Below the pieces are notes generated by a model. That model did not search any database. It was not told where the DNA came from and saw only the letters and a program-made list of their open reading frames with translations. A stretch of DNA of 64,000 bases from an uncultured Ruminococcus sp. (GTDB lineage: Bacteria > Bacillota > Clostridia > Oscillospirales > Ruminococcaceae). Made by a program: the position numbers and the translations under genes. The stretch lies in the NCBI GenBank assembly GCA_947624255.1, contig CANQJO010000001.1:1-64000 (forward strand), in the 5' to 3' direction. This document shows, one piece after another, positions 8,679 to 63,356 of the stretch (positions are counted from its first letter, which is position 1; each line of letters starts with the position of its first letter).

Positions 8679-8751
8679 GATGCTAAATTTACTCTAAAAA
8701 CCCGACGATCTTTGCGAAGATCTTGCACGGTTTTTAGAATGAAATTGGTAT
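8679..8751. repeat. Dispersed palindromic repeat, copy A (csoR leader)
   Basis: A 73-bp palindrome. The outer arms (GATGCTAAATTTACTCTAAA and TTTAGAATGAAATTGGTAT) are imperfect inverted repeats, and the centre holds a second hairpin GATCTT-TGCG-AAGATC. It lies between the copper promoter and the csoR start, so it is transcribed in the 5' leader. Related copies are at 19049, 20353, 31993 and 63306. Confidence 0.85.
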
Positions 8752-8776
8752 GATAATATTTACGGAGGTGAATTTT

Positions 8777-9079
8777 TTGGGTGAAAAATGTCAATGCTGT
8801 CATAAGACAAAGGAACGCTCCGATGAGGAATTTACCCGTCTTATCCACAGGCTCAACCGCATCGAGGGGCAGATCCGAGGGATAAGATCTATGGTGGAGA
8901 GAAACGCCTATTGTACGGATATCCTTATTCAGGTTTCGGCTGTGAATTCCGCACTGAACTCGTTCAATAAGGAGCTTCTTGCCGAGCATATCCGCACCTG
9001 TGTCGTTAAGGATATCAGAAACGGCAAGGACGATGTTATAGATGAACTTGTGAATACTCTGCAGAAGCTGATGAAATAG
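8777..9079 (+). CDS. csoR: Copper-sensing repressor CsoR
   Basis: Small all-helical DNA-binding repressor of the CsoR/RcnR family, 100 residues. The TTG at 8777 is chosen because GGAGGTG lies 6 bases before it; the ATG at 8750 precedes this site and falls within the repeat in the leader. The Cu(I) ligands of CsoR are present with the right spacing: Cys46 (in AYC), His71 and Cys75 (EHIRTC), that is C-x24-H-x3-C as in the founding member. The N-terminus has an extra Cys cluster (CQCCH, residues 5-9). It lies 11 bases upstream of copA and shares its promoter, so it probably represses its own operon until Cu(I) binds. The Cu(I) specificity is inferred from the ligands and the neighbouring gene. 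Confidence 0.93.
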   Translation: MGEKCQCCHKTKERSDEEFTRLIHRLNRIEGQIRGIRSMVERNAYCTDILIQVSAVNSALNSFNKELLAEHIRTCVVKDIRNGKDDVIDELVNTLQKLMK

Positions 9080-9090
9080 GAGGGCTTAGA

Positions 9091-11565
9091 ATGCAAAAAT
9101 TCAATGTCACCGGCATGAGCTGTGCTGCCTGCTCTGCACGCATAGAAAAAACAGTGTCTGCTGTTCCGGGTGTCAGCAGTTGTTCGGTAAGCTTGCTCAC
9201 AAACTCTATGAGCGTTGAGGGAACGGCTGATCCATCGGCAGTGATCTCGGCAGTAAAGGCTTCCGGATATGGAGCATCACTCGCAGGCAAGGCTCGAAAG
9301 GCTGATGACGCTCTTGAAGACCGTGAAACTCCTCTCATGGTTCGCAGACTTGTTTTGTCGGTGATATTTCTGATCGTTCTCATGTATTTTTCTATGGGAC
9401 ATATGATGTTCAAGCTTCCGCTTCCGCCGTTTTTTGACGGAAATCACATTGCTGTCGGACTTGCCCAGCTTCTTCTGACAATAGCTATCATGATAATAAA
9501 CAACCGCTTTTTTGTGAACGGTTTCAAAGGGCTTATTCATCGTGCTCCGAATATGGATACCCTTGTATCACTCGGTGCGGGAGCTGCCTTCATATACAGC
9601 CTGTACAATCTTTTTGCAATGACAGGCGTTGAAGGTCATGCGGCGGCTGCCTATATGAATGAATTCTACTTTGAATCTGCCGGAACGATACTCACTCTGA
9701 TAACTGTCGGAAAAACTCTTGAGGCACGCTCCAAGGGAAAAACCACCAATGCGCTGAAAGGTCTTATGAGCCTTGCGCCGAAGACTGCCGTTCTGCTTCG
9801 TGACGGAGCAGAAGTCACTGTTCCGGTGGAGGAGGTCAAAAAAGGCGATATTTTTCTCGTCCGACCTGCCGGCAATATTCCTGTGGACGGTGTCGTGATC
9901 GAGGGAAACAGTGCGGTAAACGAGGCAGCTCTCACCGGCGAGAGCATTCCTGTTGATAAAGCTCCGGGAGATGCCGTTTCTGCCGGAACTATAAATCAAT
10001 CGGGATTTCTCAAATGCGAGGCTGTTAAGGTCGGGGAGGATACCACTCTTTCGCAGATAATCAGAATGGTGAGTGATGCTTCGGCAACAAAAGCACCTAT
10101 AGCACGTATCGCAGATGTGGTTTCGGGAGTGTTTGTTCCCACAGTGATCGCAATTGCCGTTATTGCCGCAGCAGTGTGGCTGATGGTCGGTCAGAGTTTT
10201 GGATTTGCTCTGGCACGCGGAATATCGGTTCTTGTCATAAGCTGCCCTTGTGCTCTTGGATTGGCAACTCCCGTAGCGATAATGGTCGGCAACGGAGTCG
10301 GCGCAAAAAACGGCATACTTTTCAAAACGGCTGCATCTCTCGAACAGACCGGAAAGGTAACTGCCGTAGTCATGGACAAAACAGGAACGATCACACGTGG
10401 CGAGCCGGAAGTCACGGATATTATTCCGATTGATATTTCAGAAGACGAGCTGCTCTCCGTTGCCGCTGCTGTTGAGAATCGCAGTGAGCACCCTTTGGCA
10501 AAGGCTGTTATGAAAAAAGCAGCAGACTGCGGCATTGAGGTAAAGCAGACAGAGAATTTCACTGCTCTTGCAGGAAGCGGCGTAACGGCAGCTCTTGACG
10601 AAAAAATCATCTTCGGCGGCAGTATGAAATTTATTTCGGAGAAAATAAATATTCCGGAGAAGATCGTGCAGCTTGGAGAAAATCTCGCTGAGGAGGGAAA
10701 AACTCCGCTGCTTTTTATGGCGAATGATAAGCTTGCAGGGATAATCGCCGTTGCTGATGTCATAAAGGAGGATAGTCCGCAGGCTGTCAGGGAGCTTCGC
10801 AATATGGGTATACGTGTGATAATGCTCACGGGCGATAATCAGCGCACTGCCGAGGCTGTGGGAAAACTCGCCGGTGTTGATGAGGTGATCGCAGAGGTCA
10901 TGCCCGACGGCAAGGAGAATGTTATCCGCAGGCTGAAATTGAGCGAGAGAGTTGCTATGGTGGGCGACGGTATAAATGATGCTCCTGCGCTTACAAGAGC
11001 GGATACGGGCATTGCTGTAGGCGCAGGGACGGATATTGCCATTGATGCCGCTGATGTGGTACTGATGAAAAGCCGCCTTACCGATGTTCCCGCAGCAATT
11101 AGACTCAGCAGGAAAACGCTTCGGAATATACATGAGAATCTCTTCTGGGCGTTTATCTATAATATTGCCGGGATTCCCCTTGCTGCCGGAGCTTTCATAC
11201 ATCTCACCGGTCTGGAAATGGATCCCATGTTCGGAGCACTGGCTATGAGCCTGTCGAGCTTCTGTGTTGTGTCAAATGCTCTGCGGCTGAATCTGTTCAA
11301 TATACACGACAGCCGCCGAGATAAAAAAATCAAATCTAAAAAGGAGAGAGTGACCATGACAAAAACAATTTCTATCGAAGGTATGATGTGCGCCCACTGT
11401 GAGGCTTCCGTGAAAAAGGCGCTGGAGGCTCTTGCAGGCGTTGAGACTGCGGAGGTCAGCCACGAAGAAGGCACTGCTGTTGTTTCGCTAAGCGGAGAGG
11501 TCGCCGATGATGTGCTGAAAAAAGCCGTTGAGGACAAGGATTATAAAGTCCTGTCCGTAGAATAA
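9091..11565 (+). CDS. copA: Cu(I)-exporting P1B-type ATPase with a C-terminal CopZ-like domain
   Basis: Membrane copper pump of 824 residues that expels Cu(I) at the expense of ATP. Visible parts: N-terminal heavy-metal-associated domain (GMSCAAC, Cys11/Cys14); actuator motif TGES (282-285); transmembrane metal site CPC (385-387); phosphorylation motif DKTGT starting at Asp429; nucleotide-domain SEHP; hinge GDGINDAP (625-632); and the closing helices. After the last membrane helix, a charged linker (SRRDKKIKSKKE) leads to a second metal-binding domain with MMCAHC (about 756-824), which looks like a whole CopZ chaperone. An AAGGAG site and ATG inside the linker could also start this domain separately. 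Co-transcribed with csoR. Cu rather than Ag or Cd specificity is inferred from CPC and the operator. Confidence 0.96.
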   Translation: MQKFNVTGMSCAACSARIEKTVSAVPGVSSCSVSLLTNSMSVEGTADPSAVISAVKASGYGASLAGKARKADDALEDRETPLMVRRLVLSVIFLIVLMYFSMGHMMFKLPLPPFFDGNHIAVGLAQLLLTIAIMIINNRFFVNGFKGLIHRAPNMDTLVSLGAGAAFIYSLYNLFAMTGVEGHAAAAYMNEFYFESAGTILTLITVGKTLEARSKGKTTNALKGLMSLAPKTAVLLRDGAEVTVPVEEVKKGDIFLVRPAGNIPVDGVVIEGNSAVNEAALTGESIPVDKAPGDAVSAGTINQSGFLKCEAVKVGEDTTLSQIIRMVSDASATKAPIARIADVVSGVFVPTVIAIAVIAAAVWLMVGQSFGFALARGISVLVISCPCALGLATPVAIMVGNGVGAKNGILFKTAASLEQTGKVTAVVMDKTGTITRGEPEVTDIIPIDISEDELLSVAAAVENRSEHPLAKAVMKKAADCGIEVKQTENFTALAGSGVTAALDEKIIFGGSMKFISEKINIPEKIVQLGENLAEEGKTPLLFMANDKLAGIIAVADVIKEDSPQAVRELRNMGIRVIMLTGDNQRTAEAVGKLAGVDEVIAEVMPDGKENVIRRLKLSERVAMVGDGINDAPALTRADTGIAVGAGTDIAIDAADVVLMKSRLTDVPAAIRLSRKTLRNIHENLFWAFIYNIAGIPLAAGAFIHLTGLEMDPMFGALAMSLSSFCVVSNALRLNLFNIHDSRRDKKIKSKKERVTMTKTISIEGMMCAHCEASVKKALEALAGVETAEVSHEEGTAVVSLSGEVADDVLKKAVEDKDYKVLSVE
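11356..11565 (+). CDS. copZ: Possible free CopZ copper chaperone from an internal start within copA
   Basis: In frame with copA, ATG at 11356 (codon 756) is preceded by AAGGAG at 11341-11346, 9 bases away, a better site than many true starts here. The resulting 69-residue product begins MTKTISIEGMMCAHCEAS and is exactly the size of CopZ, an Atx1-like ferredoxin-fold Cu(I) carrier. Two readings are possible: the domain is only the tail of CopA, or both the fusion and free CopZ are made. E. coli copA yields a short CopZ-like product by another route (frameshifting), so double use has a precedent in principle. The site is seen; its use is inference. Confidence 0.45.
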   Translation: MTKTISIEGMMCAHCEASVKKALEALAGVETAEVSHEEGTAVVSLSGEVADDVLKKAVEDKDYKVLSVE

Positions 11566-11619
11566 GCAGAACGCAGCTCATCGGATTTTTGTAAAAACAA
11601 TAAAATATATCCCTGAGTA

Positions 11620-11648
11620 TTGCAAAGTCATCATGAATATGATATAAT
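11620..11648 (+). promoter_or_regulatory. Sigma-A promoter of tRNA-Arg
   Basis: TTGCAA (11620-11625), 17 bases and TATAAT (11643-11648) end 9 bases before the tRNA, so the transcript starts almost at the mature 5' end. Confidence 0.8.
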
Positions 11649-11657
11649 TGATATGAT

Positions 11658-11734
11658 GTCCCAATAGCTCAGTAGGATAGAGCGACCGCCTCCTAAGCGG
11701 TAGGTCGGAGGTTCGACTCCTCTTTGGGACGCCA
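11658..11734 (+). tRNA. tRNA-Arg (anticodon CCT)
   Basis: This is a 77-nt tRNA with encoded CCA. The acceptor arms GTCCCAA and TTGGGAC pair. The anticodon arm ACCGC-CTCCTAA-GCGGT gives anticodon CCT, which reads AGG. The T arm contains GGTTCGACTCC. Confidence 0.95.
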
Positions 11735-11783
11735 TATCATCTCAGGGGAGATCCCCCGGCGGACTGAAAATAATGCAGTGAAA

Positions 11784-11809
11784 GCAGCAGCTGATGAGCT
11801 GCTGCTTTT
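11784..11809 (+). terminator. Terminator after tRNA-Arg
   Basis: GCAGCAGCT, a 4-base loop and AGCTGCTGC are followed by TTTT. It lies about 50 bases past the tRNA and just before the pnuC start, so pnuC expression may depend on read-through or on a promoter I cannot see. Confidence 0.75.
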
Positions 11810-11845
11810 CATATGTTCTTCAAAATTAAATCAGTTGGAGTTAAT

Positions 11846-12556
11846 ATGAAAGCAGTAAAAATATCCGGCTATTTTACACGAACAGAGCTTTTGCTTTGGA
11901 TATCATCAATTTTCATCATCATAGGCTCATATCTTTTATTCGACAGGTCCGGCGTTCTCAAGCTGATCTCCTCACTTGTGGGAGCGACATCACTGATATT
12001 CTGCGCCAAAGGAAATCCGCTGGGGCAGCTTCTCATAATAATATTCAGTGTGTTCTATGGAATAATTTCCTACAGCTTTGCATACTACGGTGAAATGATA
12101 ACGTACCTGGGATTGACAGCTCCGATGGCAGTGCTTTCGCTTATATCATGGCTGAGAAATCCCTACAACGGAAGCAGATCACAGGTGGCGGTAAACAGGC
12201 TGAATTCAAATGAGATCCCTGTGATGCTGATGCTCACTGCCGCTGTGACGGCGATATTCTGTTTAATTCTGAAACGCCTCGGGACGGCAAATATTATTCC
12301 GAGCACGATATCTATAGCTACGAGCTTTGCGGCGATATATCTTACATTTCGCAGGAGTCCGCTTTATGCCCTTGCATATGCGCTCAACGATGCTGTTCTC
12401 ATAGTTCTGTGGTCAATGGCGGCATCAGAGGATATCTCCTATATTTCAGTGACGGTGTGTTTTGTGATATTTCTCGTGAACGACATATACGGCTTTATAA
12501 ATTGGCAGAGAATGAAAAATATACAGTCTGTAGAATCACCGACTGAAAAAACATAA
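11846..12556 (+). CDS. pnuC: PnuC-type nicotinamide riboside (or related vitamin) transporter
   Basis: Polytopic membrane protein of 236 residues resembling PnuC facilitators, which take up nicotinamide riboside for NAD synthesis. The start at 11846 is preferred over the frame opening at 11813 because TTGGAG precedes it and the earlier codons lie in the terminator. Several hydrophobic helices are visible. The C-terminal half carries the family's characteristic order: a TFRRSPLYALAYALND segment, an ILWSMAASEDISYIS-like stretch and VNDIYGFINWQRMK at the end. PnuC paralogues can carry thiamine or riboflavin instead, and no nearby biosynthetic gene or riboswitch helps decide. It appears to be a single-gene unit. 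Confidence 0.85.
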   Translation: MKAVKISGYFTRTELLLWISSIFIIIGSYLLFDRSGVLKLISSLVGATSLIFCAKGNPLGQLLIIIFSVFYGIISYSFAYYGEMITYLGLTAPMAVLSLISWLRNPYNGSRSQVAVNRLNSNEIPVMLMLTAAVTAIFCLILKRLGTANIIPSTISIATSFAAIYLTFRRSPLYALAYALNDAVLIVLWSMAASEDISYISVTVCFVIFLVNDIYGFINWQRMKNIQSVESPTEKT

Positions 12557-12676
12557 TGTCCATTTGCCGCATCAGACTTTTTGAAGCGGAGTTTTCTGCT
12601 ATATAACGGCTATTTTCTCTTTATGTAATAAATTTGGATGAAATGTAAATTATATGTGAAAATTCTCCAATTTGTA

Positions 12677-12705
12677 TTGACTTTCCGAAAACGGTGATGT
12701 ATAAT
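12677..12705 (+). promoter_or_regulatory. Sigma-A promoter of the secreted Cys-repeat protein
   Basis: TTGACT (12677-12682), 17 bases and TATAAT (12700-12705) precede the ATG at 12772 by about 65 bases. A strong AAGGGGG site lies 10 bases before the start. Confidence 0.85.
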
Positions 12706-12771
12706 ACAATTAAGCTAAAACAACAGAAGCAGTTCAAAACTGATCTTGCTTTAAGTAAGGGGGTAATTTAT

Positions 12772-15150
12772 ATGAGGAAAAATTTCAGAAAAATTACGGC
12801 ATTGATCGTATCAGGAGGAATACTCGCAGGACTTTTCCCGTTCAGCGCATCAGGTATCAACGCAAACGAACCGGCAAATGATACGGCACTGACAGCGGCT
12901 GCGGCAAATGCTGAATACAACATGGATATTCAGTATAGCACGACAAGCTCCCACAAGCATTCCACAGGCAGTTTTGTTCGCATAGAAAGACAAGAGGCTA
13001 CGTGTGAGCTTCCCTCGATGGACGTTTACATTTTTACCTGTAGTGTGTGCGGCGAGGAGTTTCCGCTGATCTGGAGAGCTGCTCATGAAAATTTCCAACC
13101 GTCTTTCGGACATGATCTCGAAAATCCCGTAACGGGCGAAAATGAATGCGGCACGTACGCTGTCGGCCATTGTAAAAGATGCGGCAAGGATGATGCGGTA
13201 AACGGCTCTATGAAACATTCATGGCAGGGCTGGTGGATCGAAAAGCAGCCCACCTGTCAGAGTGCGGGAATTCTCAAAAATGAATGCACTAAATGCCATA
13301 TGACAAAGACAGAGGATATCGCTCAGCTTGATTTCCACAATATCAAAGAGTGGAAACTCGTTAGTCCGGCAGATTGCGAAAACGAGGGCGTTTACTCCGG
13401 TACCTGCGTTGACTGCGGAGCTGTTGAAACAAGAAACACTCCGGCTCTCGGTCACAGATATGATGTTGATCTCACTGTAAAGCCTGCTACCTGCACAGAG
13501 GAGGGGCTTACCTACAGAGAGTGCACACGCTGCGGCAAGAAAAATGAGAGCTCTGTTCAGACAACTCCCGCAAAAGGTCATTGCTATACAGATGACGGCG
13601 ACTGCACAACTCCGGTGATCTGTAAGACCTGCGGTGAAACTGTTATCGAGGCTAAGGAACATCAGCTCAGCAGTGAATGGTCAAGCGACGGCTCAGGTCA
13701 CTATCATGCCTGCCTTAACGAGGGCTGCACTGTTAAGAGTGATCTGACTCCTCATACGGGCTCAGTCATTGACGGCGACTGCACCAAAGGCATTATGTGT
13801 ACTGTCTGCGGCGGTATCGGAAGCGATAATGCTCACCACGATTTCAGCGGAAAAGGTACGTATTATGCCTATGGCAGACATTCTGTTACCTGCTCGGTTC
13901 CCGGCTGCAAAGTTAAGGAGACATTCTATCACGTTGAAAAAGAGCGCACGGATTGTACAGAAGATGTTGTCTGTGAAATATGCGACAGTGTAATCGGAAA
14001 TGGAACGAAAAATCATAATTTCAGCGGCGAAGCTGTTGCAGAAGGAGATCATCACGTTTATTACTGCCGGAACCTGAAAGGAAAATGTACCGGTACTAAG
14101 GTTGAGGAGCATAAACCTGCTAACGATGACGGCGACTGCCGCACAACGCTCCGTTGTGTAAGCTGTAAAGCAGTTATAGCTCAGGCACAGGAGGCGCATT
14201 CGTTCAGCACAGCGATATACACCGATGCTAACGGCTGTCAGTATCGTAAATGTGTAAACGCTACCTGCACCGCAAAGCAGTACATCGGACACGAGGAGTA
14301 TGATTCTGCCGCACATAACTATGTAAACGGCAAATGCACGATCTGCGGATCGGTCGGCGAAAAACTCGGCGGTCATAGTCTCACTCTTGACGGAAAAATT
14401 GAAGTAAACTTCTATATGCTGCTTGACAGCTCCGTTCTGAATGACAACGGTGCATATATGAAATTCACTACATCCGATGGCTTGGAGAAAGTCTTCGTAA
14501 GCACTGCAAAGAACAACTTCAAGGACGGATACTATGTATTCACCTGCTCAGTTGCTCCCAAGGACGTAAACTCGGAGATAAAGGCTCAGCTCGTACTCGG
14601 TGACGGTACAAAGGGCAACATTTATAAGTATTCCATAAGCGAGTATGCAAACTCTATCGGTTTCACAACAGCTACAAGCGAGACAAAGCAGCTTGTTGAT
14701 GCTATGATGAACTACGGACAAAGCGCCGAGTCATATTTCGCAAACGATACAGTTGCCGCTCCTGCCGAAGAAATTACCGCAGAGTCTCTTGAAAAATACA
14801 AGAGCCGGAAAAGCGGCGAGCTTCCGGAGGGTATCGAGTATGTAAATACCAGCCTTGTCCTTGATTCAGCCGTTTCTATACGCCACTACTTCAAGGTTGA
14901 AGAGGGTACGGATATCTCAGGATATAATTTCATTCTGAATGTATCAAACGGACTCTACTTTGTTGAGATCAAAAATATCACCGCTAAGGAGCTTGGAACG
15001 CTTGTTGATACCGTGATCGGTGACTTCACGCTGACCTACAGCCCCATGAGCTATGCTTATGCAGTGCTCAGCAAGGAGGGTATACCCGAAAATCTTGTGA
15101 ATCTTGTAAAGTCATTGTATATCTACAATCAGGCAAGTGAAAAGCTATAA
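12772..15150 (+). CDS. Secreted Cys-rich repeat protein (zinc-ribbon-like CxxC repeats)
   Basis: Exported protein of 792 residues with no recognised enzymatic role. The start at 12772 follows AAGGGGG and begins a signal peptide (MRKNFRKITALIVSGG, cleavage near residue 33); the frame upstream runs through the promoter. From about residue 55 to 535 there are many irregular repeats of the type PATCTEEGLTYRECTRCG, each with CxxC pairs and conserved His, spaced 35-60 residues. Such repeats are common in secreted proteins of Ruminococcus-like Clostridia and may bind metal or form disulfides. The last 250 residues (from LGGHSLTLDGKIEVNFYMLL) are Cys-free and beta-rich. There is no sorting motif, dockerin or C-terminal helix, so the protein is presumably released or held non-covalently. 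Confidence 0.85.
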   Translation: MRKNFRKITALIVSGGILAGLFPFSASGINANEPANDTALTAAAANAEYNMDIQYSTTSSHKHSTGSFVRIERQEATCELPSMDVYIFTCSVCGEEFPLIWRAAHENFQPSFGHDLENPVTGENECGTYAVGHCKRCGKDDAVNGSMKHSWQGWWIEKQPTCQSAGILKNECTKCHMTKTEDIAQLDFHNIKEWKLVSPADCENEGVYSGTCVDCGAVETRNTPALGHRYDVDLTVKPATCTEEGLTYRECTRCGKKNESSVQTTPAKGHCYTDDGDCTTPVICKTCGETVIEAKEHQLSSEWSSDGSGHYHACLNEGCTVKSDLTPHTGSVIDGDCTKGIMCTVCGGIGSDNAHHDFSGKGTYYAYGRHSVTCSVPGCKVKETFYHVEKERTDCTEDVVCEICDSVIGNGTKNHNFSGEAVAEGDHHVYYCRNLKGKCTGTKVEEHKPANDDGDCRTTLRCVSCKAVIAQAQEAHSFSTAIYTDANGCQYRKCVNATCTAKQYIGHEEYDSAAHNYVNGKCTICGSVGEKLGGHSLTLDGKIEVNFYMLLDSSVLNDNGAYMKFTTSDGLEKVFVSTAKNNFKDGYYVFTCSVAPKDVNSEIKAQLVLGDGTKGNIYKYSISEYANSIGFTTATSETKQLVDAMMNYGQSAESYFANDTVAAPAEEITAESLEKYKSRKSGELPEGIEYVNTSLVLDSAVSIRHYFKVEEGTDISGYNFILNVSNGLYFVEIKNITAKELGTLVDTVIGDFTLTYSPMSYAYAVLSKEGIPENLVNLVKSLYIYNQASEKL

Positions 15151-15156
15151 AAATGC

Positions 15157-15187
15157 CGGGACTGCTTTCGTGGCAGTCCCGATTTTT
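15157..15187 (+). terminator. Terminator of the Cys-repeat protein gene
   Basis: CGGGACTGC, a 7-base loop and GCAGTCCCG are followed by ATTTTTT, 6 bases after the stop codon. Confidence 0.9.
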
Positions 15188-18765: not shown

Positions 18766-19048
18766 TAAAATGCTTGCTGAAACGGCGTAAATACGTCAAT
18801 TTTGCTGTTATCATGATAACAGTGGCAACGATTTGGCAACATTTTCCGATTATCGGCAACAGTATGAGAATATTTGTCTGAAAAGATAAGAGCTACCTGA
18901 TTTTGTTTTGAATCGGGTAGCTCTTTTTTCCTTAAAAATGAGATTTTAATTCTTCTATTTTTTTGATTTCTTTCAAGATGTTCCAATTCCTACACACGTC
19001 AATTTTCAAATGACTGTAAAATTGAAACATTTGTTTTTACAACAGTTT
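18766..19048. other. Intergenic region after guaA
   Basis: No gene is visible. The region holds a perfect palindrome CTGTTATCATGATAACAG (18804-18821), a terminator (18890-18929), and the approach to a half-copy of the dispersed repeat (19049-19085) at the end of the opposing gene. Confidence 0.6.
18890..18929 (+). terminator. Terminator downstream of guaA
   Basis: GAGCTACCTGATT and AATCGGGTAGCTC pair (one G-T) and are followed by TTTTTT. It lies about 125 bases past the guaA stop codon. Confidence 0.85.
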
Positions 19049-19085
19049 CGCAAAGATCGTCGGGTTTTCAGAATGAAATAAGTAT
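19049..19085. repeat. Dispersed palindromic repeat, copy B (half copy)
   Basis: The first 20 bases, CGCAAAGATCGTCGGGTTTT, match exactly the complement of one half of copy A; it then continues through one outer arm (CAGAATGAAATAAGTAT). The other half is missing. It overlaps the 3' end of the DUF3592-like gene and supplies its last codons and stop codon. Confidence 0.8.
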
Positions 19086-19553
19086 TGCATATATTGTTGC
19101 ACCTATCCATGCAGCTTCCACGACAGAGAACATTATAGTATAACCAATTGCTGAAACAAGGTCATATTTTTCGAGACAGGCATTTTCGGGACATTCAGGG
19201 TCATAAATAATCGGTATTTTATTATAGCCAATTTTCCATTTGCCTGTTTTCAGTCCGTTTTTACATTTATATTCTTTTCCGTCAGCCTGATAACTTATAC
19301 AATTGTATCCATTTCGTGAATAAATCACGTTTATTAACGTTCCATCAGTGCGGCAGCCGTTTTTGTGGAGATTTTTTATATAAATCAGATTTTTAATTTC
19401 TGACATCAAAAACCATGAAGAAAAAATACCAAAAAAGACAAGAACGGACAACACAAATCCCATTTCTCCGAATAAATAAAAACATAAAGCAAATGTCACC
19501 GCTGTCACGGCTATAACTGCAATACAGATTTTCAAAACTCTTACAATGTTCAT
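19068..19553 (-). CDS. DUF3592-like membrane protein
   Basis: Membrane protein of 161 residues, function unknown. Two N-terminal helices (about 8-28 and 31-51), a soluble central part with a small beta-barrel-like pattern (GTLINVIYSRNGYNCISYQADGK region, then PIIYDPECPENA), and a C-terminal helix (about 138-158): this is the plan of DUF3592 proteins. The PxxYDPxxP-like element is typical. AAGGTGAG precedes the start. The ATG overlaps the shifted-frame stop of the hsdM remnant upstream (TAATG), so the two were, or are, one operon. Its own last codons and stop come from repeat copy B. The family match is from memory and moderate. Confidence 0.7.
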   Translation of the reverse strand: MNIVRVLKICIAVIAVTAVTFALCFYLFGEMGFVLSVLVFFGIFSSWFLMSEIKNLIYIKNLHKNGCRTDGTLINVIYSRNGYNCISYQADGKEYKCKNGLKTGKWKIGYNKIPIIYDPECPENACLEKYDLVSAIGYTIMFSVVEAAWIGATIYAILISF

Positions 19554-20084: not shown

Positions 20085-20354
20085 ATGAGAGCAGTTGTGA
20101 CTGTAATAGGTAAGGATACTGTGGGAATTCTCCACAAGGTAAGCGGCATATGCGCCGGATTTAACGTGAATGTCATCGAAGTTACACAGAGCGTACTTCA
20201 GGATATGTTCGCAATGATAATGCTGGTCGATATCTCCGCAATAAAGGGCGATTTTTCTGAACTGGTAGACAGAATGACCGCACTCGGCACAGAGCTTGGA
20301 CTCTCCATACATACGATGCACGAGGATATCTTCAATTCCATGCATAATGTCTGA
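20085..20354 (+). CDS. ACT-domain protein (UPF0237 family)
   Basis: Single ACT domain of 89 residues (MRAVVTVIGKDTVGILHKVS opening, then a GFNVNVIEVTQSVLQDMFAMIMLVDIS core). ACT domains bind amino acids or other small ligands and usually regulate a partner enzyme. In many Firmicutes this gene sits directly before the PFL-family (UPF0210) gene, as here, implying a joint but unknown role. Its stop codon TGA is the first part of dispersed repeat copy C, which fills the 82-base gap to the next gene. Confidence 0.92.
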   Translation: MRAVVTVIGKDTVGILHKVSGICAGFNVNVIEVTQSVLQDMFAMIMLVDISAIKGDFSELVDRMTALGTELGLSIHTMHEDIFNSMHNV

Positions 20355-20420
20355 TACTGATTTCATTCTAAAAAACGTGCCGGATATTCGTTACGTTGGG
20401 TTTTAGAAGTAAATTAGTAT
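20353..20420. repeat. Dispersed palindromic repeat, copy C (between ACT and PFL genes)
   Basis: A 68-bp element with arms GATACTGATTTCATTCTAAA and TTTAGAAGTAAATTAGTAT. The centre differs from copy A (CGTGCCGGATATTCGTTACG) but can still fold. It starts within the stop codon of the upstream gene and ends right at the ribosome-binding site of the downstream one. Confidence 0.85.
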
Positions 20421-20436
20421 GAAAGGAAGAATTCAA

Positions 20437-31502: not shown

Positions 31503-31994
31503 ATGAACAAAATAAGGATACTGGGGATAGATCCCGGCTATGCCATTGTCGGTTTCGGAATACTTGATTACAACGGCGTAAGGTTCACTCCGATAGAGTA
31601 TGGCGCAGTCCTCACCGAGGCAGGTACGCTGTTTCCGCAGCGGCTGAAAGCTATCTATGAAGATGTGGAATTCATATTCGAGAAATTCAAGCCGGACTGC
31701 ATGGCTGTGGAACGCCTTTACTTCACTACCAACCGGAAGACTGCCATAGATGTCGCTCAGGCAAGGGGCGTTACCATACTCTCGGCAGCAAAGAGAGGTA
31801 TCCCTGTTTCGGAGTACACTCCGTTGCAGGTAAAGCAATCGGTGGTGGGTTACGGTAAGGCTGAAAAGCATCAGGTAATGGAGATGACCCGACAGCTTTT
31901 AGGCCTTGCACAGATACCGAAGCCGGACGATGCCGCAGATGCTCTTGCGATCGCCATTTGTCACGGACATTCATCACGCTTTGATATATTTTGA
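31503..31994 (+). CDS. ruvC: Holliday junction resolvase RuvC
   Basis: Endonuclease that cuts Holliday junctions during recombination, 163 residues, the normal length. Catalytic acidic residues are seen as Asp10 (LGIDPG), Glu70 (AVERLYF) and the pair in PDDAADALAIA near the end. The start at 31503 follows GGGAGG and gives the standard N-terminus; the frame extends 40 codons further upstream but that part is untranslated leader. The TGA stop codon overlaps dispersed repeat copy D. Confidence 0.97.
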   Translation: MNKIRILGIDPGYAIVGFGILDYNGVRFTPIEYGAVLTEAGTLFPQRLKAIYEDVEFIFEKFKPDCMAVERLYFTTNRKTAIDVAQARGVTILSAAKRGIPVSEYTPLQVKQSVVGYGKAEKHQVMEMTRQLLGLAQIPKPDDAADALAIAICHGHSSRFDIF

Positions 31995-32070
31995 TACTGA
32001 TCTCACTCTGAAACCCGGGGAGCTTTGCGAAGATCCCGCACCTTTTACTGCGTCGCAATGAAATCAGTAT
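31993..32070. repeat. Dispersed palindromic repeat, copy D (between ruvC and ruvA)
   Basis: A 78-bp element. The left arm GATACTGATCTCACTCTGAA and right arm CGCAATGAAATCAGTAT are inverted, and the centre has GGGAGCTTTGCGAAGATCCC, a variant of the copy A core hairpin. It begins inside the ruvC stop codon and ends about 20 bases before the ruvA ribosome-binding site. Confidence 0.85.
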
Positions 32071-32091
32071 GAGTACCCGTGGAGGTAAAAA

Positions 32092-57000: not shown

Positions 57001-57288
57001 GAGACCTGTCTGACCGCCGAGAGTGGAAAGCAGGCTGTCCGGCTTTTCGATCTCTATGATACGCTTTACCACGTCAAGAGTCAGCGGCTCGATATATACT
57101 TTGTCAGCCATAGCCTTGTCGGTCATGATAGTGGCAGGGTTGGAGTTCACCAGCACTACCTCAAGTCCCTCCTGTCTGAGAGCACGGCACGCCTGCGTTC
57201 CGGCATAGTCAAATTCAGCGGCTTGTCCTATCACGATAGGACCTGAACCGATCACAAGCACTTTTTTGATATCATTTCTCAGAGGCAT
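54097..57288 (-). CDS. carB: Carbamoyl-phosphate synthase large subunit
   Basis: Makes carbamoyl phosphate from bicarbonate, ammonia and two ATP; 1,063 residues, normal length. Two homologous ATP-grasp halves (each opening with a KVLVIGSGPIVIGQAAEFDY or KVIVFGSGPIRIGQGIEFDY segment), with an allosteric MGS-like domain at the C-terminus (about 935-1063). The start codon overlaps the carA stop (TGATG) and its GGAGGAG site lies inside carA, giving coupled synthesis of the two subunits. Last gene of the pyr operon here. Confidence 0.98.
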   Translation of the reverse strand: MPLRNDIKKVLVIGSGPIVIGQAAEFDYAGTQACRALRQEGLEVVLVNSNPATIMTDKAMADKVYIEPLTLDVVKRIIEIEKPDSLLSTLGGQTGLTLSMQLAEEGFLEAHNVKLLGADPETIHKAEDRQAFKDTMEKIGEPCIPSKVVETVDDAVDFAQTIGYPVIVRPAFTLGGTGGGIASNEEELRDISTNGLRLSPITQVLIEKCISGWKEIEFEVIRDAKGNVITVCSMENFDPVGVHTGDSIVIAPAVTLSDREYQMLRTAAINIIKELRVEGGCNCQFALRPDSFEYAVIEVNPRVSRSSALASKATGYPIAKTAAKIAIGYTLDEIVNQVTGKTYACFEPTLDYVVIKFPKWAFDKFVYAKRTLGTQMKATGEVMAIGTSFEQAMMKAVRSIELGLDSMDLPKLAKYSDEEIRTMLHDVDDERSFKVFEALKRGITPEEIHDITMIDNWFLYKLKNLADIEKYLADGELTAEKYDLAKQYGYLDSTIERISGQKCPKRRRAVFKMVDTCAGEFKAETPYFYSTFDEENEAEEFIRRKNTGKKKVIVFGSGPIRIGQGIEFDYCSVHCVWTLKELGYEAVICNNNPETVSTDFDTGDRLYFDPLTREDVESIIETEKPYGVVVQFGGQTAIKLTRHLSDMGVNILGTSADMIDAAEDRERFDEILEKCGIPRPAGHTVMTTEEAVAAAEDLGYPVLLRPSYVLGGQNMIIAHSKDDVVEYMGIITAHMIENPVLIDKYMMGTEVEVDAICDGEDFLIPGIMEHIERAGVHSGDSISIYPAQHLSDRIKRIIVEYTRLLSKELNVIGLVNIQYVVYNHEVYVIEVNPRSSRTVPYISKVTGIPMVDIATRIMFGEKLRDMGYQSGLYPSGEYVAVKIPVFSFEKLTDVDTMLGPEMKSTGECLGIGRNLEDALLKGLIAAGFDLKREGGVLISVRDTDKREILPIADKFERMGFEIYATSGTQSVLNRNMIAANLVRKISEGEPNAVTLLESGKIHYVISTSAKGRLPERDSVKMRRKSIERSICSLTAIDTAKALAKVLESGRTINDVELVDITKI

Positions 57289-58394
57289 CAGCGGCTCCTC
57301 CTTTCTGCCATTTTATTGATGAAGCTGTCGAAGAGATAAGCGGTATCGAGCGGACCGCCTCTTGCCTCCGGGTGAAACTGCACGGTAAATGCGTTCACGG
57401 AGGTATATCTTATCCCCTCGCAGGTCTTGTCGTTGGCATTTATGTGTGAAACGTGCCCGATCTCAGGCGGAATACTTTCTCCCACGACAGCATAGCCGTG
57501 ATTCTGACTGGTGACATATGTCAGACCGCTTTCCAGATCAATAACGGGCTGATTTGCACCTCTGTGACCGTATTTGAGTTTTTCCGTCCTGCCGCCGTTT
57601 GCAAGAGCCATAAGCTGATGTCCCAGACATATCCCGAATATAGGGATACCAAGCTGCTGTATTTCACGGAGATTCGCAATGACAGCGGTATTCTCAGAGG
57701 GGTCTCCGGGACCGTTCGAGAGCATTATGCCGTCGGGAGCAAGCTCTCTGATCCGGGCAGCTGTTGTATCTGCCGGAACGACCGTGACCTGACAGCCTCT
57801 GTTTACCAGCTCCTGACGGATATTCCGCTTGTAGCCGAAATCAAACAGCACCACCTTATACAAGGGAGAGTTATCACCGTAGGTACGCACCTCATTTCCC
57901 GTGACAGATGCAACGGCTTTTGTGATAGTATATTCACGTACTTTTTTCAGGACTGCCTCCTTGTCGGTGATCGGCTCAGTGGTGATGATGCCGTTCATGA
58001 CGCCTGCTTCACGTATCGTTCTTGTAAGACGGCGTGTATCAATATTGCATATGCCGATTATGTTATGCTTTATCAAAAAGTCGTTGATATTTCCCTCACA
58101 GCGGAAATTTGAGGGAGCATTGCACCATTCCCGGACGATATATCCGCTCACGTATGAGGCTGCTGATTCATTATCCTCGCTGTTTACGCCGTAATTTCCA
58201 ATAAGAGGGAATGTCTGTATCACTATTTGTCCGTAGTAGCTCGGATCGGTAAGAGTCTCCTGATAGCCGGTAACACCCGTAGTGAACACGACCTCACCGA
58301 TGACTGTTCCCTTAGTGCCGAAACTCAGACCTTCAAAGATCTGACCGTCCGCCAGCATTAGCCATGCCTTTTCACCCTGATTGAATAATGACAT
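57288..58394 (-). CDS. carA: Carbamoyl-phosphate synthase small (glutaminase) subunit
   Basis: Releases ammonia from glutamine for CarB; 368 residues. The N-terminal half is the CarA-specific domain (GEKAWLMLADGQIFEG opening); the C-terminal class I amidotransferase has its Cys in GICLGHQLMAL and the His-Glu pair in QFHPEARGGP. AAGGAGGA lies 9 bases before the ATG. Confidence 0.98.
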   Translation of the reverse strand: MSLFNQGEKAWLMLADGQIFEGLSFGTKGTVIGEVVFTTGVTGYQETLTDPSYYGQIVIQTFPLIGNYGVNSEDNESAASYVSGYIVREWCNAPSNFRCEGNINDFLIKHNIIGICNIDTRRLTRTIREAGVMNGIITTEPITDKEAVLKKVREYTITKAVASVTGNEVRTYGDNSPLYKVVLFDFGYKRNIRQELVNRGCQVTVVPADTTAARIRELAPDGIMLSNGPGDPSENTAVIANLREIQQLGIPIFGICLGHQLMALANGGRTEKLKYGHRGANQPVIDLESGLTYVTSQNHGYAVVGESIPPEIGHVSHINANDKTCEGIRYTSVNAFTVQFHPEARGGPLDTAYLFDSFINKMAERRSR

Positions 58395-58478
58395 TTTAAC
58401 TGTCCTCCTTCACGGATTTTTCAAATATATCTGAGGGGATCTCTGCCGCACCTGTCTGTTTTTTTACGAGACAGGTGT

Positions 58479-59399
58479 TCAGCGAAGCCGTTGAGTGATA
58501 TCATCTCTCATGCGGAGAACCTCCCGTCGGGCAGCGCCGGCAAAATCACGTTCATCGCAGCCCTCTTTTTTATAGGCACACATCACCGCACGTGAGGAGT
58601 TCACAATCGCTCCCAGTCCGTTTTTATCGAAGCCTCCCACAAGTCCCTCAGCGCCGCCTCCCTGCGCACCGTATCCGGGAACGAGGAACATGGTGTGGGG
58701 AAGTCTCTCTCTCAGTTCTGAAAGCTGACGGGGATATGTAGCTCCCACAACAGCGCCCACGGCGGAGTAGCCGTACTCTCCGATAGTATCAGCTCCCCAT
58801 TTTTCGCACATATCTCCCATTGCGGCATATATGGGCGTACCATCGTCAAGAAGCCTGTCCTGAAGCTCACCGCTTGAAGGATTGGAGGTCTTCACGAGTA
58901 CAAAAATTCCCTTGTCACGCTCACGGCATATATCGACGAGAGGCTTGATACCGTCAGTTCCGAGATATCCGTTCACCGTGAGAGCGTCCGCACCGAACGG
59001 CTCGAGCTGACTGTCACCGATAGTTACCGCACCTAAGTGAGCATTTGCGTAAGCCTCCATGGTAGCACCGATGTCATTGCGTTTGCCGTCAGTGATGACG
59101 AACATTCCGTTGAGCCGGGCATATCTGATAGTTTTTTCAAGAGTACGCATTCCGTAGTGACCGTACATCTCGTAGTATGCGGCCTGCGGCTTTATCGCCG
59201 GTACTACATCGTGTATCTGATCTATTATTGCCTGATTGAAGTCGAAGATAGCTTTTGCGGCAGCCTTTAGTGTCCAGCCGTCATTATCGAGGTAACGCCT
59301 CCGGATAAATTCGGGAACGTAGTCAAGCTTTGGGTCGAGTCCCACCACGGTGGGGTTTTTCAGTTCGATTATTCTTTTAATAAGTCGGTCAAATGACAT
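58479..59399 (-). CDS. pyrF: Orotidine-5'-phosphate decarboxylase (long, type 2)
   Basis: Last step of UMP synthesis, 306 residues. The catalytic Lys-Asp set appears in ITDGKRNDIGATMEAYA (about residue 90), the DxKRxDI pattern of the longer class 2 enzymes; a shorter class 1 protein would be about 235 residues. Six bases after pyrC, with AAAGGTAGG before the ATG. Confidence 0.96.
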   Translation of the reverse strand: MSFDRLIKRIIELKNPTVVGLDPKLDYVPEFIRRRYLDNDGWTLKAAAKAIFDFNQAIIDQIHDVVPAIKPQAAYYEMYGHYGMRTLEKTIRYARLNGMFVITDGKRNDIGATMEAYANAHLGAVTIGDSQLEPFGADALTVNGYLGTDGIKPLVDICRERDKGIFVLVKTSNPSSGELQDRLLDDGTPIYAAMGDMCEKWGADTIGEYGYSAVGAVVGATYPRQLSELRERLPHTMFLVPGYGAQGGGAEGLVGGFDKNGLGAIVNSSRAVMCAYKKEGCDERDFAGAARREVLRMRDDITQRLR

Positions 59400-59405
59400 A
59401 GTATC

Positions 59406-60677
59406 CTACCTTTCGTCGAATCGTATTTCTCCATTTGAAATTGTCACCAGCGGCTTACCGCACAGCGTCATACCCTTGAATACGCTGTTATGTGATCTTG
59501 AATGGAGCTTTTCCGGCTCTACCGTCCACTTTTTATTTATATCAGCGATAACGAGATCGGCTTTTTTCCCCGGTTCTATCGCCGGTACTTCAAGACCGAG
59601 CAGTCTTCTCGGATTTGCACACATCAATGACACTATCCTGTTGAGCGAGAGCACTCCTGTGTGATAGAGTGCGGTGAGTGCGGCGGCGAGTGAAGTCTCC
59701 AATCCCACCACGCCGTTGGGAGCTTTCAGAAAATCTCTCTTTTCCTCTGCGGTATGGGGAGCGTGATCGGTAATTATGCAGTCGATCGTACCGTCCCTCA
59801 GAGCTTCAATGATCGCAGCTGTATCCTCAGATGTTCTCAGCGGAGGATTCATTCTGTAGTCTGCATCACGCTTTTCAAGGAGCTCATCGGTGAGCATGAA
59901 ATAATGCGGAGCGGTCTCACAGGTCACTTTTATTCCCTTTGATTTTGCAAAGCGTATTATTTCGGCACTGCCTTTTGTAGAGACGTGGCAGATGTGTATA
60001 CGGGCATTTGCTGATGCTGCAAGAATGATCTCTCTTGCGGTTATGCTGTCTTCGGAGGCTCTGTCCATGCCGGGAACGCCCATTCGCTCTGAGACATCGC
60101 CTTTATTCATTATGCCGCCGCTGATGATGCTGAGATCTTCGCAGTGTGACGCAACAAGAATTCCTTTTTTCTCGGCTTCTTTCAGAGCCTTTAGCATAAG
60201 CCCCGCATTTTCAACAGGTCTGCCGTCATCGGAGAGGCATATACATCCTGCGTTTTTCAGTTCATCAAAGCTGCAAAGCTCACTGCCGTTCATGCCCTTT
60301 GTGATACAGCCTGCCGGATACACATCAACACCTGTGCACTTTGCCTTGTCTATGATATAGCGTATGGTTTCGGAATTGTCGCAGGGAGGCTTTGTATTGG
60401 GCATGGCAAGCACTCCCGTCACACCGCCTGCAAGAGCCGCTGAACAGCCGGTGAGGATATCCTCCTTGTGGGTAAGACCGGGATCACGGAAATGAACGTG
60501 CATATCAAACAATGAGGGCATAAGCACAAGACCGTCTCCGCTGATGATATGGTCAGCCTCATACGGGAGGGAGTCTCCGACATCGGAGATAATGCCGTTC
60601 TTGATAAAAACATCGCATATTTTGTCTGAGTTTTCATCAACGGCACGTATATTTCTGATCAAAATAGTATCTGACAT
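59406..60677 (-). CDS. pyrC: Dihydroorotase
   Basis: Ring-closing third step of pyrimidine synthesis, 423 residues, class I (PyrC of Bacillus type). Zinc ligands are seen in DMHVHFRDPG (His-x-His) and the later IHICHVSTKGSAE and ITDHAPHT segments; the substrate loop is MNPPLRTSED. Second in the operon; AAGGAG precedes the ATG. Confidence 0.97.
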   Translation of the reverse strand: MSDTILIRNIRAVDENSDKICDVFIKNGIISDVGDSLPYEADHIISGDGLVLMPSLFDMHVHFRDPGLTHKEDILTGCSAALAGGVTGVLAMPNTKPPCDNSETIRYIIDKAKCTGVDVYPAGCITKGMNGSELCSFDELKNAGCICLSDDGRPVENAGLMLKALKEAEKKGILVASHCEDLSIISGGIMNKGDVSERMGVPGMDRASEDSITAREIILAASANARIHICHVSTKGSAEIIRFAKSKGIKVTCETAPHYFMLTDELLEKRDADYRMNPPLRTSEDTAAIIEALRDGTIDCIITDHAPHTAEEKRDFLKAPNGVVGLETSLAAALTALYHTGVLSLNRIVSLMCANPRRLLGLEVPAIEPGKKADLVIADINKKWTVEPEKLHSRSHNSVFKGMTLCGKPLVTISNGEIRFDER

Positions 60678-60729
60678 ATTTACTCCTTATAACTTTTATC
60701 ACAAGAGCAGTGCGCAGCTTATGAAGATA

Positions 60730-61230
60730 TTATAACAGAATGACCTGATCGCAGCCGTCAGTCTCCATGACAGAGACTCTGACATTCTCACTGCGTGAGG
60801 TGGGGAGATTTTTTCCCACATAATCGGGGCGAATGGGCAGCTCACGATGACCTCTGTCCACAAGAACAGCAAGCTGTACAGAGCGTGGTCTGCCTCTTTT
60901 TATGATAGCCTCCAGTGCAGCACGTGAGCTTCTTCCGGTGAAGATAACGTCATCAACGATAACGACATTTTTATCTTTTACATCAAAGGGAATATTCGTC
61001 CGCTCTGACTGACCGGCAGAGGTGAGATCGTCTCTGTAGGGGGTGATGTCGATCTCACCGAACGGAACGCCGATCTTTTCAAGCTCTGACAGCTTTTCAG
61101 CGATACGTTTTCCGATAGGCACGCCACGAGAGAAGATGCCCACGATGCAGAGATCATCTGCGCCCTTGTTTCGTTCAAGAATTTCATATGATATCCGTGC
61201 AATAGCACGCTGCACGGCTTTTTCGTCCAT
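60730..61230 (-). CDS. pyrR: PyrR: pyr operon attenuation regulator / uracil phosphoribosyltransferase
   Basis: RNA-binding regulator with weak uracil phosphoribosyltransferase activity, 166 residues from ATG 61230. The PRPP-binding motif is VVIVDDVIFTGRSSRAAL, with FSRGVPIG and PRSVQLAVLVDRGHRELPI also typical. The ATG has no ribosome-binding site, whereas AAAGGAG at 61267-61261 lies 9 bases before an in-frame CTG at 61251. Starting there would add LETGHTI, bringing the N-terminus into line with other PyrR (about 173 residues), so a non-ATG start is likely. UMP-bound PyrR should bind the leader upstream and cause termination. Confidence 0.95.
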   Translation of the reverse strand: MDEKAVQRAIARISYEILERNKGADDLCIVGIFSRGVPIGKRIAEKLSELEKIGVPFGEIDITPYRDDLTSAGQSERTNIPFDVKDKNVVIVDDVIFTGRSSRAALEAIIKRGRPRSVQLAVLVDRGHRELPIRPDYVGKNLPTSRSENVRVSVMETDGCDQVILL

Positions 61231-61329
61231 AATAGTGTGCCCGGTTTCCAGAGTTATCAGCTCCTTTCAATGAGTGCAAATGCCGTCAGATAGCAGCTGT
61301 TTGCATTAGAGGGCGGTATAAATGAACCT

Positions 61330-61359
61330 AAAAAAGCTCGCCTGAGATGACAGACGAGC
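61330..61359 (-). terminator. pyr operon attenuator terminator
   Basis: On the minus strand GCTCGTCTG, loop TCATCT, CAGGCGAGC then TTTTTT, about 75 bases before the pyrR start. With the PyrR-binding loop upstream, this is the expected regulated terminator. Confidence 0.88.
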
Positions 61360-61557
61360 ATAGCCGCAGCTACGGGAGGGCGTACCCTTCCGCAGCATCT
61401 GATAGTAGTTACGTCATAATATGCAGGAGTGGAAATTGCTCTCATGCGGACATGAGCGGTCTTATTGCTTTTCCGACCGGCTCCTCGACATTTAATCGGC
61501 AGAGCAATGTTGTTAAGGGTCAATGCATCTGACGTATACCATAAATAGCTTTACACG

Positions 61558-61588
61558 CCTTTCCGACCTCACGGGATCAGCTTAAAGG
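61558..61588 (-). promoter_or_regulatory. PyrR-binding loop in the pyr leader
   Basis: The minus-strand RNA contains CCTTT...GATCCCGTGAGGTC...AAAGG. GATCCCGTGAGGTC fits the PyrR recognition consensus ARUCCNGNGAGGYU, and it sits in the required stem (CCTTT/AAAGG), internal bulge and hairpin arrangement. It lies about 30 bases after the promoter. Uridine nucleotides should promote PyrR binding here and termination downstream. Confidence 0.82.
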
Positions 61589-61616
61589 ACATCGGCAGAA
61601 ATTTTCCGCCTAAACC

Positions 61617-61645
61617 ATTATATCATAGAATATCAGAAAATGCAA
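61617..61645 (-). promoter_or_regulatory. Sigma-A promoter of the pyrR-pyrC-pyrF-carA-carB operon
   Basis: On the minus strand TTGCAT (61645-61640), 17 bases and TATAAT (61622-61617), with TGA before the -10. Confidence 0.88.
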
Positions 61646-61862
61646 TACACATAAGAGAATTTTTTCTGATACTTTTAAATTTGTACAATGCGCAGATATT
61701 TTTTGCCGTACAAAACAAGTTACATTGCGAAAATGCTTCCGGCGGTGCGCCGTCTCTGCGCCGCTGTTTTTTGCATAAAGTTCTCCGTTTACTATCATGC
61801 GTGCGACGACCTGTTCCCCTTTCTGAAATGATGCAGCGTGAATGCCGGCGGGGGCTCCCCGC

Positions 61863-62447
61863 TTAGTGGATCATCGGGCGCAGCTGTATCCCATTCATGG
61901 CAGCATCAACGGCATCGGGCAGCATGGAAAACTCAGCCACAAGGGAGGCAGGCTTGTTTTCACAGTCATCCTGAAGCATCGGTACAAAATAGTAATTCTT
62001 CCTGTTGAAAAGCTCTCCGATATTTTTTGCCGAGCCGAGCAGCGAATCGTTGGAGGCTATCGCAAGAAGCACAGGCTTGCTTCGGCGCAGATGAGACTTC
62101 ACCGCCATTGTGACCGCACCGTCACAGATGCTTGCCGCTAATTTTGCCGCAGTGTTTGACGTACAGGGAGCGATCACCATGATGTCCGTCATATCCTCCG
62201 GACCGATATGCTCTGCCCCGGCAATGGTGGTTATTACGCTTTTTCCGGCGATTTTTTCAAGCCTTGCAACGTTTTCCTCAGCTTTTCCAAAGCGAGTGGA
62301 GAGCGTTGCTGCGTGCTCAGACATGACAGGTATAAGCTCAGCTCCCAGCTCTTTCAGATAATTTGCCTGTTCAAAGCTGCGGCTGAACGTGCAGAATGAG
62401 CCTGTCATTGCGTAGCCGATACGAAGTCCTTTAAGGCGTTCCGTCAT
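61863..62447 (-). CDS. dpaB: Dipicolinate synthase subunit B
   Basis: Flavoprotein-like subunit of dipicolinate synthase, 194 residues; with DpaA it makes dipicolinic acid in the mother cell during sporulation. The N-terminus (GLRIGYAMTGSFCTFSRSF) and VIAPCTSNTAAKLAASICDGAVTMAVKSHLR are typical of SpoVFB/DpaB and the flavodoxin-like decarboxylase fold it derives from. It overlaps dpaA by 17 bases. Confidence 0.96.
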   Translation of the reverse strand: MTERLKGLRIGYAMTGSFCTFSRSFEQANYLKELGAELIPVMSEHAATLSTRFGKAEENVARLEKIAGKSVITTIAGAEHIGPEDMTDIMVIAPCTSNTAAKLAASICDGAVTMAVKSHLRRSKPVLLAIASNDSLLGSAKNIGELFNRKNYYFVPMLQDDCENKPASLVAEFSMLPDAVDAAMNGIQLRPMIH

Positions 62448-63279
62448 ATACAGTGCCTCCTTTCAGAATACTCATTACTGTTTCAGCGATAATTTCTCCG
62501 GCGGTCACGGGAGCTGTTTTTCCGGGAAGTCCGGGCGCACATATGACCTTTATTCCCAGATCACTCGCTGCATCATGATCAATGCCTCCGGGCTTTGATG
62601 CAAGATCAATAAAGAGCGTTTCTCTGCTGAATTTTTTCAGGATCTCACGGGTGAATATCATTTTGGGGACGGTATTGAAAACAAGTCCGAAATCTGTGGA
62701 GATATCCTCTGTAAAGGAAGATCTGATCCCGATAATACGAGCTTTTGCAGCTCCCCTTTCATTGTGGACGGCTGCGGTGATATCTGCGCCGAAGCCTTTG
62801 AGTATCTCTGCGAGAGCAGTACCGATACGTCCCGGACCGACTATCAGGACTTTCAGTCCGTTGAGAGTTACAGGAAGTTCTTCAAGAGCGAGCTGTACTG
62901 CGCCTTCTGCTGTCGGGACAGCGTTTTTCAGACTCAGCTCCTCACTTTCAAGATAGTCGATCACCTCCGTTCCCATATTTTTTTTCAGTTCATCATCAAC
63001 ACGACCTGCAAGCACGATCCCTCCGGACTTAAGCATCTCCTTTACAGCGGAGGGAGCGATCTTTTTCTGAGAGAACGGAGTATACACCATTCCGTTCTCC
63101 AATGGCGGAACAGGCAGTACGGCACAGTCGAACAGCTCACCCGGAATGGGAGTACGCACCGGAGTATTATACTCATCGAAGCCTGTTATAGCGGTAATAT
63201 TGTCACGGGAGAGCCTTTCTGCGCAGTAAAGCTGGCGCAGATCTCCTCCGGCGATAAGTATTTTAAGTGGTTCATTCAT
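62431..63279 (-). CDS. dpaA: Dipicolinate synthase subunit A
   Basis: NADPH-binding subunit of dipicolinate synthase, 282 residues. The Rossmann motif LIVGPGRIGTALAEILKGFGA (about residue 150) and SKPGGIDHDAASDLGIKVICAPGLPGKTAP are characteristic of DpaA. The start at 63279 follows TTGGAGA; an in-frame TTG at 63294 is part of that site. Presence of dpaA-dpaB implies an endospore-forming ancestry. A sigma-K-like promoter lies upstream. Confidence 0.96.
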   Translation of the reverse strand: MNEPLKILIAGGDLRQLYCAERLSRDNITAITGFDEYNTPVRTPIPGELFDCAVLPVPPLENGMVYTPFSQKKIAPSAVKEMLKSGGIVLAGRVDDELKKNMGTEVIDYLESEELSLKNAVPTAEGAVQLALEELPVTLNGLKVLIVGPGRIGTALAEILKGFGADITAAVHNERGAAKARIIGIRSSFTEDISTDFGLVFNTVPKMIFTREILKKFSRETLFIDLASKPGGIDHDAASDLGIKVICAPGLPGKTAPVTAGEIIAETVMSILKGGTVYDGTP

Positions 63280-63305
63280 GGTAAAAATCTCCAATCTGCC
63301 GCATT

Positions 63306-63356
63306 ATACTGATTTTATTCTAAAAAAGATCCTCGGGTTTTGGGATGAAATTAGTA
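63306..63356. repeat. Dispersed palindromic repeat, copy E (dpaA leader)
   Basis: A short 51-bp version: arms ATACTGATTTTATTCTAAAA and TTTTGGGATGAAATTAGTA, with the central hairpin reduced to about AAGATCCTCGGG. It lies in the expected 5' leader of dpaA-dpaB. Confidence 0.8.

Follow-up and report, generated by a model that had tools for sequence, protein, structure and literature searches.

A probable MITE family with TNA flanks in the genome of an uncultured Ruminococcus

A short palindromic repeat that is dispersed through the genome of an uncultured Ruminococcus sp. is very likely a MITE that duplicates a 3-bp TNA target. It would be mobilised in trans by a transposase, putatively of the IS5 family (IS1031-like), and would have spread as several deletion classes and be tolerated at the ends of genes. 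We studied it from the window, by which we mean the whole stretch of 64,000 nucleotides of contig CANQJO010000001.1 that was analysed. An earlier note on this DNA had suggested that the repeat was a MITE or REP-like. The first half of that suggestion is now strongly supported, as the repeat occurs at 63 places in the genome, has terminal inverted repeats and agreeing TNA flanks, and sits in gaps that are shorter in relatives. The second half is not favoured: repeats of 3 bp at the flanks and terminal repeats of about 18 nt would point to a DDE-type transposase.

Copies in the window

All five of the copies that had been described in the window are present. The borders given for them were off by a base or two and took in part of the flanking TNA. 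The copies, and the two stop codons that are repeated beside them, are:

Copy A: 8681..8750, + strand, 70 nt long, within the 5' leader of csoR, with TGA on each side (8678-8680 and 8751-8753)
Copy B: about 19049..19084, - strand, a half element, consisting of one arm with some of the core, at the 3' end of a DUF3592-like ORF
TGA stop of the ACT-domain gene: 20352..20354, + strand, repeated as TGA at 20420-20422, past copy C
Copy C: 20355..20419, - strand, 65 nt long, with the ACT-domain gene and a DUF711 (PFL-like) gene as its neighbours
TGA stop of ruvC: 31992..31994, + strand, repeated as TGA at 32070-32072, past copy D
Copy D: 31995..32069, + strand, a 75-nt element in the gap between ruvC and ruvA, which resembles an internally deleted long form
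Copy E: 63307..63356, - strand, a 50-nt element in the 5' leader of dpaA, with most of the core missing and with flanks TTA and CTA

Copies A, C, and D thus have TGA on either flank. With up to 3 mismatches allowed, the arm pattern matches the window six times, while 100 shuffles gave 0.02 matches on average and at most 1.

Copy B is indeed a half, and copy E does lack most of the core. Three copies were said to share or vary a core hairpin; the shared core is real in A and D, and copy C has a variant (TAACG) that it has in common with four other short copies. Copy D had been grouped with A and C as near full length, but it is more than a simple complete copy of the short class: on the left it carries long-class sequence (CACCTTTTACTGCGTC), and the best fit of copy D to the long consensus with a single deletion agrees at 67 of 75 positions.

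The gene contexts are borne out by Pfam, which finds csoR (PF02583), ACT (PF13740), DUF711, RuvC, and DpaA_N at the copies; the DUF3592-like match of the ORF at copy B is below the curated cut-off. Judged by gene order, the five places would be transcribed. This ORF (19068-19553, minus strand) runs into the repeat, and its final five codons (ILISF) and stop (19068-19085) are the arm sequence of copy B. An automatic pairing at copy B (18961-19084) was taken as false.

By eye, the csoR promoter (TTGACA and TATAAT, window 8640-8690) has a palindrome, ATACCCTATGGGGGTAT, in its spacer. Copy A starts a few bases past the TATAAT, and most of the leader may be element. Elsewhere in the window, positions 2785-8547 (+) encode a large surface protein with six SpaA stretches, an ice-binding-like adhesive domain, and threonine-rich repeats.

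Copies and size classes across the genome

The genome that holds the window comprises 2.24 Mb in 48 contigs. The arm pattern matches it 82 times (39 forward and 43 reverse), against 2 matches for the reversed control (0 and 2). A covariance model (R1), which was built from 25 short copies, has at least 89 matches on both strands at E ≤ 0.01, with 150 of 1,796 candidates scored. Once the arm matches and model matches are merged, the genome has 63 places with the repeat. A genome-wide search with such a model had been suggested as a check in the earlier note, and it found far more than the five copies of the window.

At 50 of the 63 places, the arms could be paired into an element with terminal inverted repeats of about 18 nt each. 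(The other 13 places were unpaired and were dropped.) The paired elements span 50-172 nt and form two main size classes: 27 of the 50 are 64-70 nt long, including 17 of 69 nt, and 12 are 154-160 nt long, including six of 159 nt. Two others are 111 nt. The core of the long form is directional. If 90 nt are removed from the 159-nt consensus, then what is left agrees with the 69-nt consensus at 64 of 69 positions, and the best break is at a GCAC repeat. The longest ATG-to-stop ORF within any of the 50 elements is just 46 amino acids.

Bacterial MITEs in general are also short and non-coding, with inverted ends, target duplications, many copies, and deletion classes; named families include Correia, Nezha, and Chunjie.

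At C4:154259-154323, a 65-nt copy separates the two halves of a perfect inverted repeat of 15 nt (ccgcacaaagcagtt / aactgctttgtgcgg), much like an insertion in the loop of a terminator.

Matching TNA flanks

The element starts with TACTGATTT, ends with AAATCAGTA, and is flanked by TNA, so that its layout is TNA-TACTGATTTCATTCTAAA ... TTTAGAATGAAATCAGTA-TNA. In 29 of the 50 pairs, the two 3-nt flanks are identical. TNA is found on both sides of 35 pairs, and N is the same in 29 of these 35; across 10,000 shuffles, the mean was 9.5 and the maximum was 19. An earlier cut of the same test gave 24 of 41 identical, against a mean of 8.0 and a maximum of 16 in 2,000 shuffles. The remaining 21 of 50 pairs do not have identical flanks; in six of them, both flanks are TNA but N differs. 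The agreement in N is the trace that is expected of a 3-bp TNA target duplication, and the repeat, as read from the flanks of filled sites, appears to be a MITE with such a duplication.

Shorter gaps in relatives

The gap between ruvC and ruvA is 97 bp in this genome, or 19 bp without the element and one TGA. Among 29 loci from relatives, this gap is 13-33 bp in 23, and is 51, 61, 67, 126, 128, and 423 bp in the other six. So, in most of the relatives that we examined, the gap is shorter by about the length of the element. In other species with gaps of 126, 423, and 128 bp (L177, L181, and L202), we noticed other inserted or repeat-like sequence at the junction.

The gap between trpF and trpB is 99 bp here, or 27 bp without the element. 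Among 29 loci, it is 4-33 bp in 13, 66 bp in one, -1 bp in two, and 267-1523 bp in 13; eight of the 13 loci with long gaps lack a good match to trpF nearby.

The site between the ACT-domain gene and the DUF711 gene was read by eye; many of the 29 computed gaps were negative there, as the stop search had overrun. In some relatives, the BLAST pieces adjoin at the position of the element (in G071, query 1-271 and 335-810). Four of these relatives (L251, L255, L256, and L257) already have TGATGA at the site. Their sequence is thus what remains here once just the element is taken out, and a duplication cannot be claimed at this site.

Placement relative to genes

Genes were called with a codon-score gene caller, and none of the 50 elements is wholly within a called gene. 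The neighbouring genes are co-directional for 28 elements, convergent for 9, and divergent for 8, and five elements are without a called neighbour. Two elements, the half copy B and C8:35485, overlap the end of a called gene by 17 nt.

Eleven of the 50 elements are exactly on the stop codon of a neighbouring gene, and the TNA at either flank is identical to this stop. In the window, these are copies C and D. We found a Pfam family for 10 of the 11 genes: RuvC, ACT, PRAI, DUF4956, TPM, dockerin with ricin-type lectin, TsaD, zinc-transporter dimerisation, acetolactate synthase small subunit, and phosphorylase superfamily. With an even spread of insertions over all TNA sites in the gap where each one lies, 6.2 elements would be expected on stop codons, as compared to 11 of 41 (P = 0.016), which is a modest excess. 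(From the 50, this test omits five elements without two called neighbours, the doubtful C2:124098 and C5:70061, the false pairing at copy B, and C8:35485.) A first version of the test considered only elements with identical flanks and two called neighbours, and gave 11 of 26 versus 4.8 expected (P = 0.0006). We prefer the wider test because a stop codon is protected from mutation, so that selecting identical flanks favours an excess.

As TNA is always TAA or TGA on one of the strands, an insertion at a stop codon keeps the gene whole. The placement could reflect a preference for stop codons or better survival there, which would give the same picture in our data. A more elaborate reading is that, because of this target, the element prefers, or best survives at, real stops, duplicates them, and puts a strong hairpin at the end of the coding sequence, which would adjust coupling or decay in the mRNAs of the operons ruvC-ruvA, trpF-trpB, and ACT-DUF711. 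We consider this reading to be improbable.

Copies in other genomes

A search of relatives with the covariance model matched just one of 60 genomes, the element's own. In a sample of the family, with strict filters, one of 396 genomes was matched, but with 12 candidates scored per listed genome this is weak evidence of absence. Across 125 genomes of the genus, the arm pattern gave 61 arms in the own genome, 18 arms in one other (G153), and one arm each in eight others. In a collection of named genome contigs, the arm pattern was found in 38 stretches, and the model matched 10 of them. These are nine copies from uncultured Ruminococcus Lapin-026__bin77, which are at the same contig positions as the copies in G153, and one copy from uncultured Clostridia Lapin-012__bin41. 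The 28 stretches with arms but no model match were set aside as chance; two of them (L126 and L114) were viewed by eye. Using a 161-nt copy as the query, we found no match in the plasmid and phage collections, and the viral contigs gave one arm match and no model match.

Eight of the nine copies from Lapin-026 and the copy from Lapin-012 are 82-91% identical to the nearest copy in our genome. By comparison, the trpB and DUF711 stretches of G153 are 78% and 75% identical to those of the own genome. The copies are more alike across species than these two housekeeping stretches are, which suggests that the element has moved between species, and movement between species would be the simplest reading.

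The flanks of the nine Lapin loci do not match the flanks of the copies in our genome, except at L136 and L132. L136 contains a csoR-like operon that resembles the one in the window, with 64% DNA identity. The match between L132 and L045 is at the protein level, over 53 residues. At L136 (1424-1587), G153 has a long copy that also precedes a csoR-like gene, within its 5' leader; this copy is oriented like copy A, and its left flank is TGA. The two CsoR-like proteins look only distantly alike and the promoters differ; the insertion could be a parallel one or an old shared one.

Search for the transposase

According to PMC12016507, the IS1031 subgroup of IS5 prefers TNA and exclusively makes a 3-bp repeat. 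ISLrh, a member described there, is like our repeat in its TNA target, its 3-bp direct repeat, and its inverted ends of about 17-18 bp, but it is 857 bp long, its ends are GAACCTGTCTAGTATCT instead of TACTGATTTCATTCTAAA, and, in contrast to ISLrh, the copies of our repeat carry no transposase.

We searched for PF01609 and PF13359 in the own genome and in the two other holders of the repeat, and we did not identify a transposase with these ends; draft assemblies often break at insertion sequences. At none of the 13 loci examined (L140-L145 and L221-L227, some of which overlap) do the element's ends occur with fewer than 6 mismatches over 18 nt. Because no transposase with these ends was found, we infer the IS5 family (IS1031-like) from the TNA target by itself.

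The own genome does contain an IS5-like insertion sequence of ~0.9 kb, which is near contig ends (L140, L141, and L143, on contigs C2, C14, and C12) and has the ends TAGACCTGTTCTAAAACC. Its transposase is frame-shifted and in two parts, as in IS5 relatives (PF01609 and PF13359). The inner TTCTAAAACC of its ends is also found in the repeat, but the outer ends differ (TAGACCTG versus TACTGATTTCA), and L143 is flanked by AAT, not TNA.

Alternative explanations

It is possible, although less likely, that the MITE was moved by a transposase of another family whose insertions likewise duplicate a 3-bp TNA: nothing but the target points to a family, no transposase with these ends turned up, and the genome's own IS5-like element has only the inner part of its ends in common with the repeat. 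TNA with a 3-bp repeat is, however, reported as the habit of the IS1031 group (PMC12016507). Insertion without any duplication, into a TNATNA that was already there, would account for the TGATGA between the ACT-domain gene and the DUF711 gene in four relatives. But this would require that two TNA with one and the same middle base already stood side by side at 29 places, 11 of which are real stop codons, so we consider it very unlikely. We give even less credence to REP-like palindromes that are spread by a RAYT (Y1) transposase. REP elements are also short intergenic palindromes, and several copies of our repeat are at the 3' ends of genes, but to our knowledge REP elements do not duplicate their target, while our repeat has matching 3-bp flanks and terminal repeats of about 18 nt.

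The earlier note also proposed that the hairpin had been co-opted as an RNA element for mRNA processing or stability, in 5' leaders, between the genes of operons, and at 3' ends. This is unlikely, and the sequences do not support it. For copies A, C, and E, the fold is much more stable than for shuffled sequences (z of about -4.5 to -5.5), but good folding would be expected anyway from the terminal repeats, and copy D folds weakly (z = -1.98) and copy B not at all (z = 0.44). The covariation term from RNAalifold is +0.02 kcal/mol for the 25 short copies, with changes on both sides in three of 13 pairs, and -0.16 kcal/mol for the long class. We also tested arm pairing, strands, and columns in the 47 of 50 pairs that have no more than 5 mismatches in either arm; these include the false pairing at copy B. 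The arms within a copy pair with each other slightly more than shuffled arms do, at 723 of 846 positions versus 715.5 (172 of 5,000 shuffles reach 723), or at 673 positions versus 655.5 if only Watson-Crick pairs are counted (43 of 5,000 reach 673). Against this, the four paired columns that are testable rank 7, 22, 31, and 45 of 55 column pairs by association, and the top associations are between unpaired columns within one arm, so the associations probably reflect subfamilies, not compensation. The same strand folds better in 38 of the 47 copies, and it is the sense strand in 18 of 27 tandem contexts. This asymmetry is suggestive at most of an RNA role. G-U pairs number 93 versus 50, and a single column supplies 29 versus 1 of these. 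After these tests, we rejected RNA function as the main reading. That the repeat is an intrinsic terminator, a known structured RNA, or derived from a tRNA is scarcely credible. There are hairpins at some 3' ends, but five consecutive T occur in the 12 nt beyond an end in just one of the 50 copies. In the window, Rfam finds only two tRNAs, neither of which is at a copy, and at five further loci none of the copies is matched either (E up to 0.5).

Proposed mechanism and significance

We propose that a transposase acting in trans, putatively of the IS5 family (IS1031-like), binds the roughly 18-bp ends of the MITE. The enzyme's cut in a target TNA would be staggered by 3 bases, and insertion of the element there would duplicate the TNA. 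The fullest form is about 159 nt, and the shorter classes, which occur many times, fit internal deletions of it; the 69-nt class would have lost 90 nt near the GCAC repeats. An insertion exactly on a real stop codon would leave the gene whole, with a stop on either side of the element. Selection against other insertions would explain why the copies that remain are intergenic or at the 3' ends of genes.

This adds a family of non-autonomous elements to a Ruminococcus-like lineage. Among the open-access titles listed in our literature searches, none describes such a family in Ruminococcus. We consider it to be a probably new MITE family with TNA flanks. The placement at stop codons is the most interesting part of the finding, as it suggests a rule: duplication of TNA always brings an element onto a trinucleotide that reads as a stop on one strand or the other, and the ends of genes are thus places where a compact genome can accept it, with the stop codon kept.
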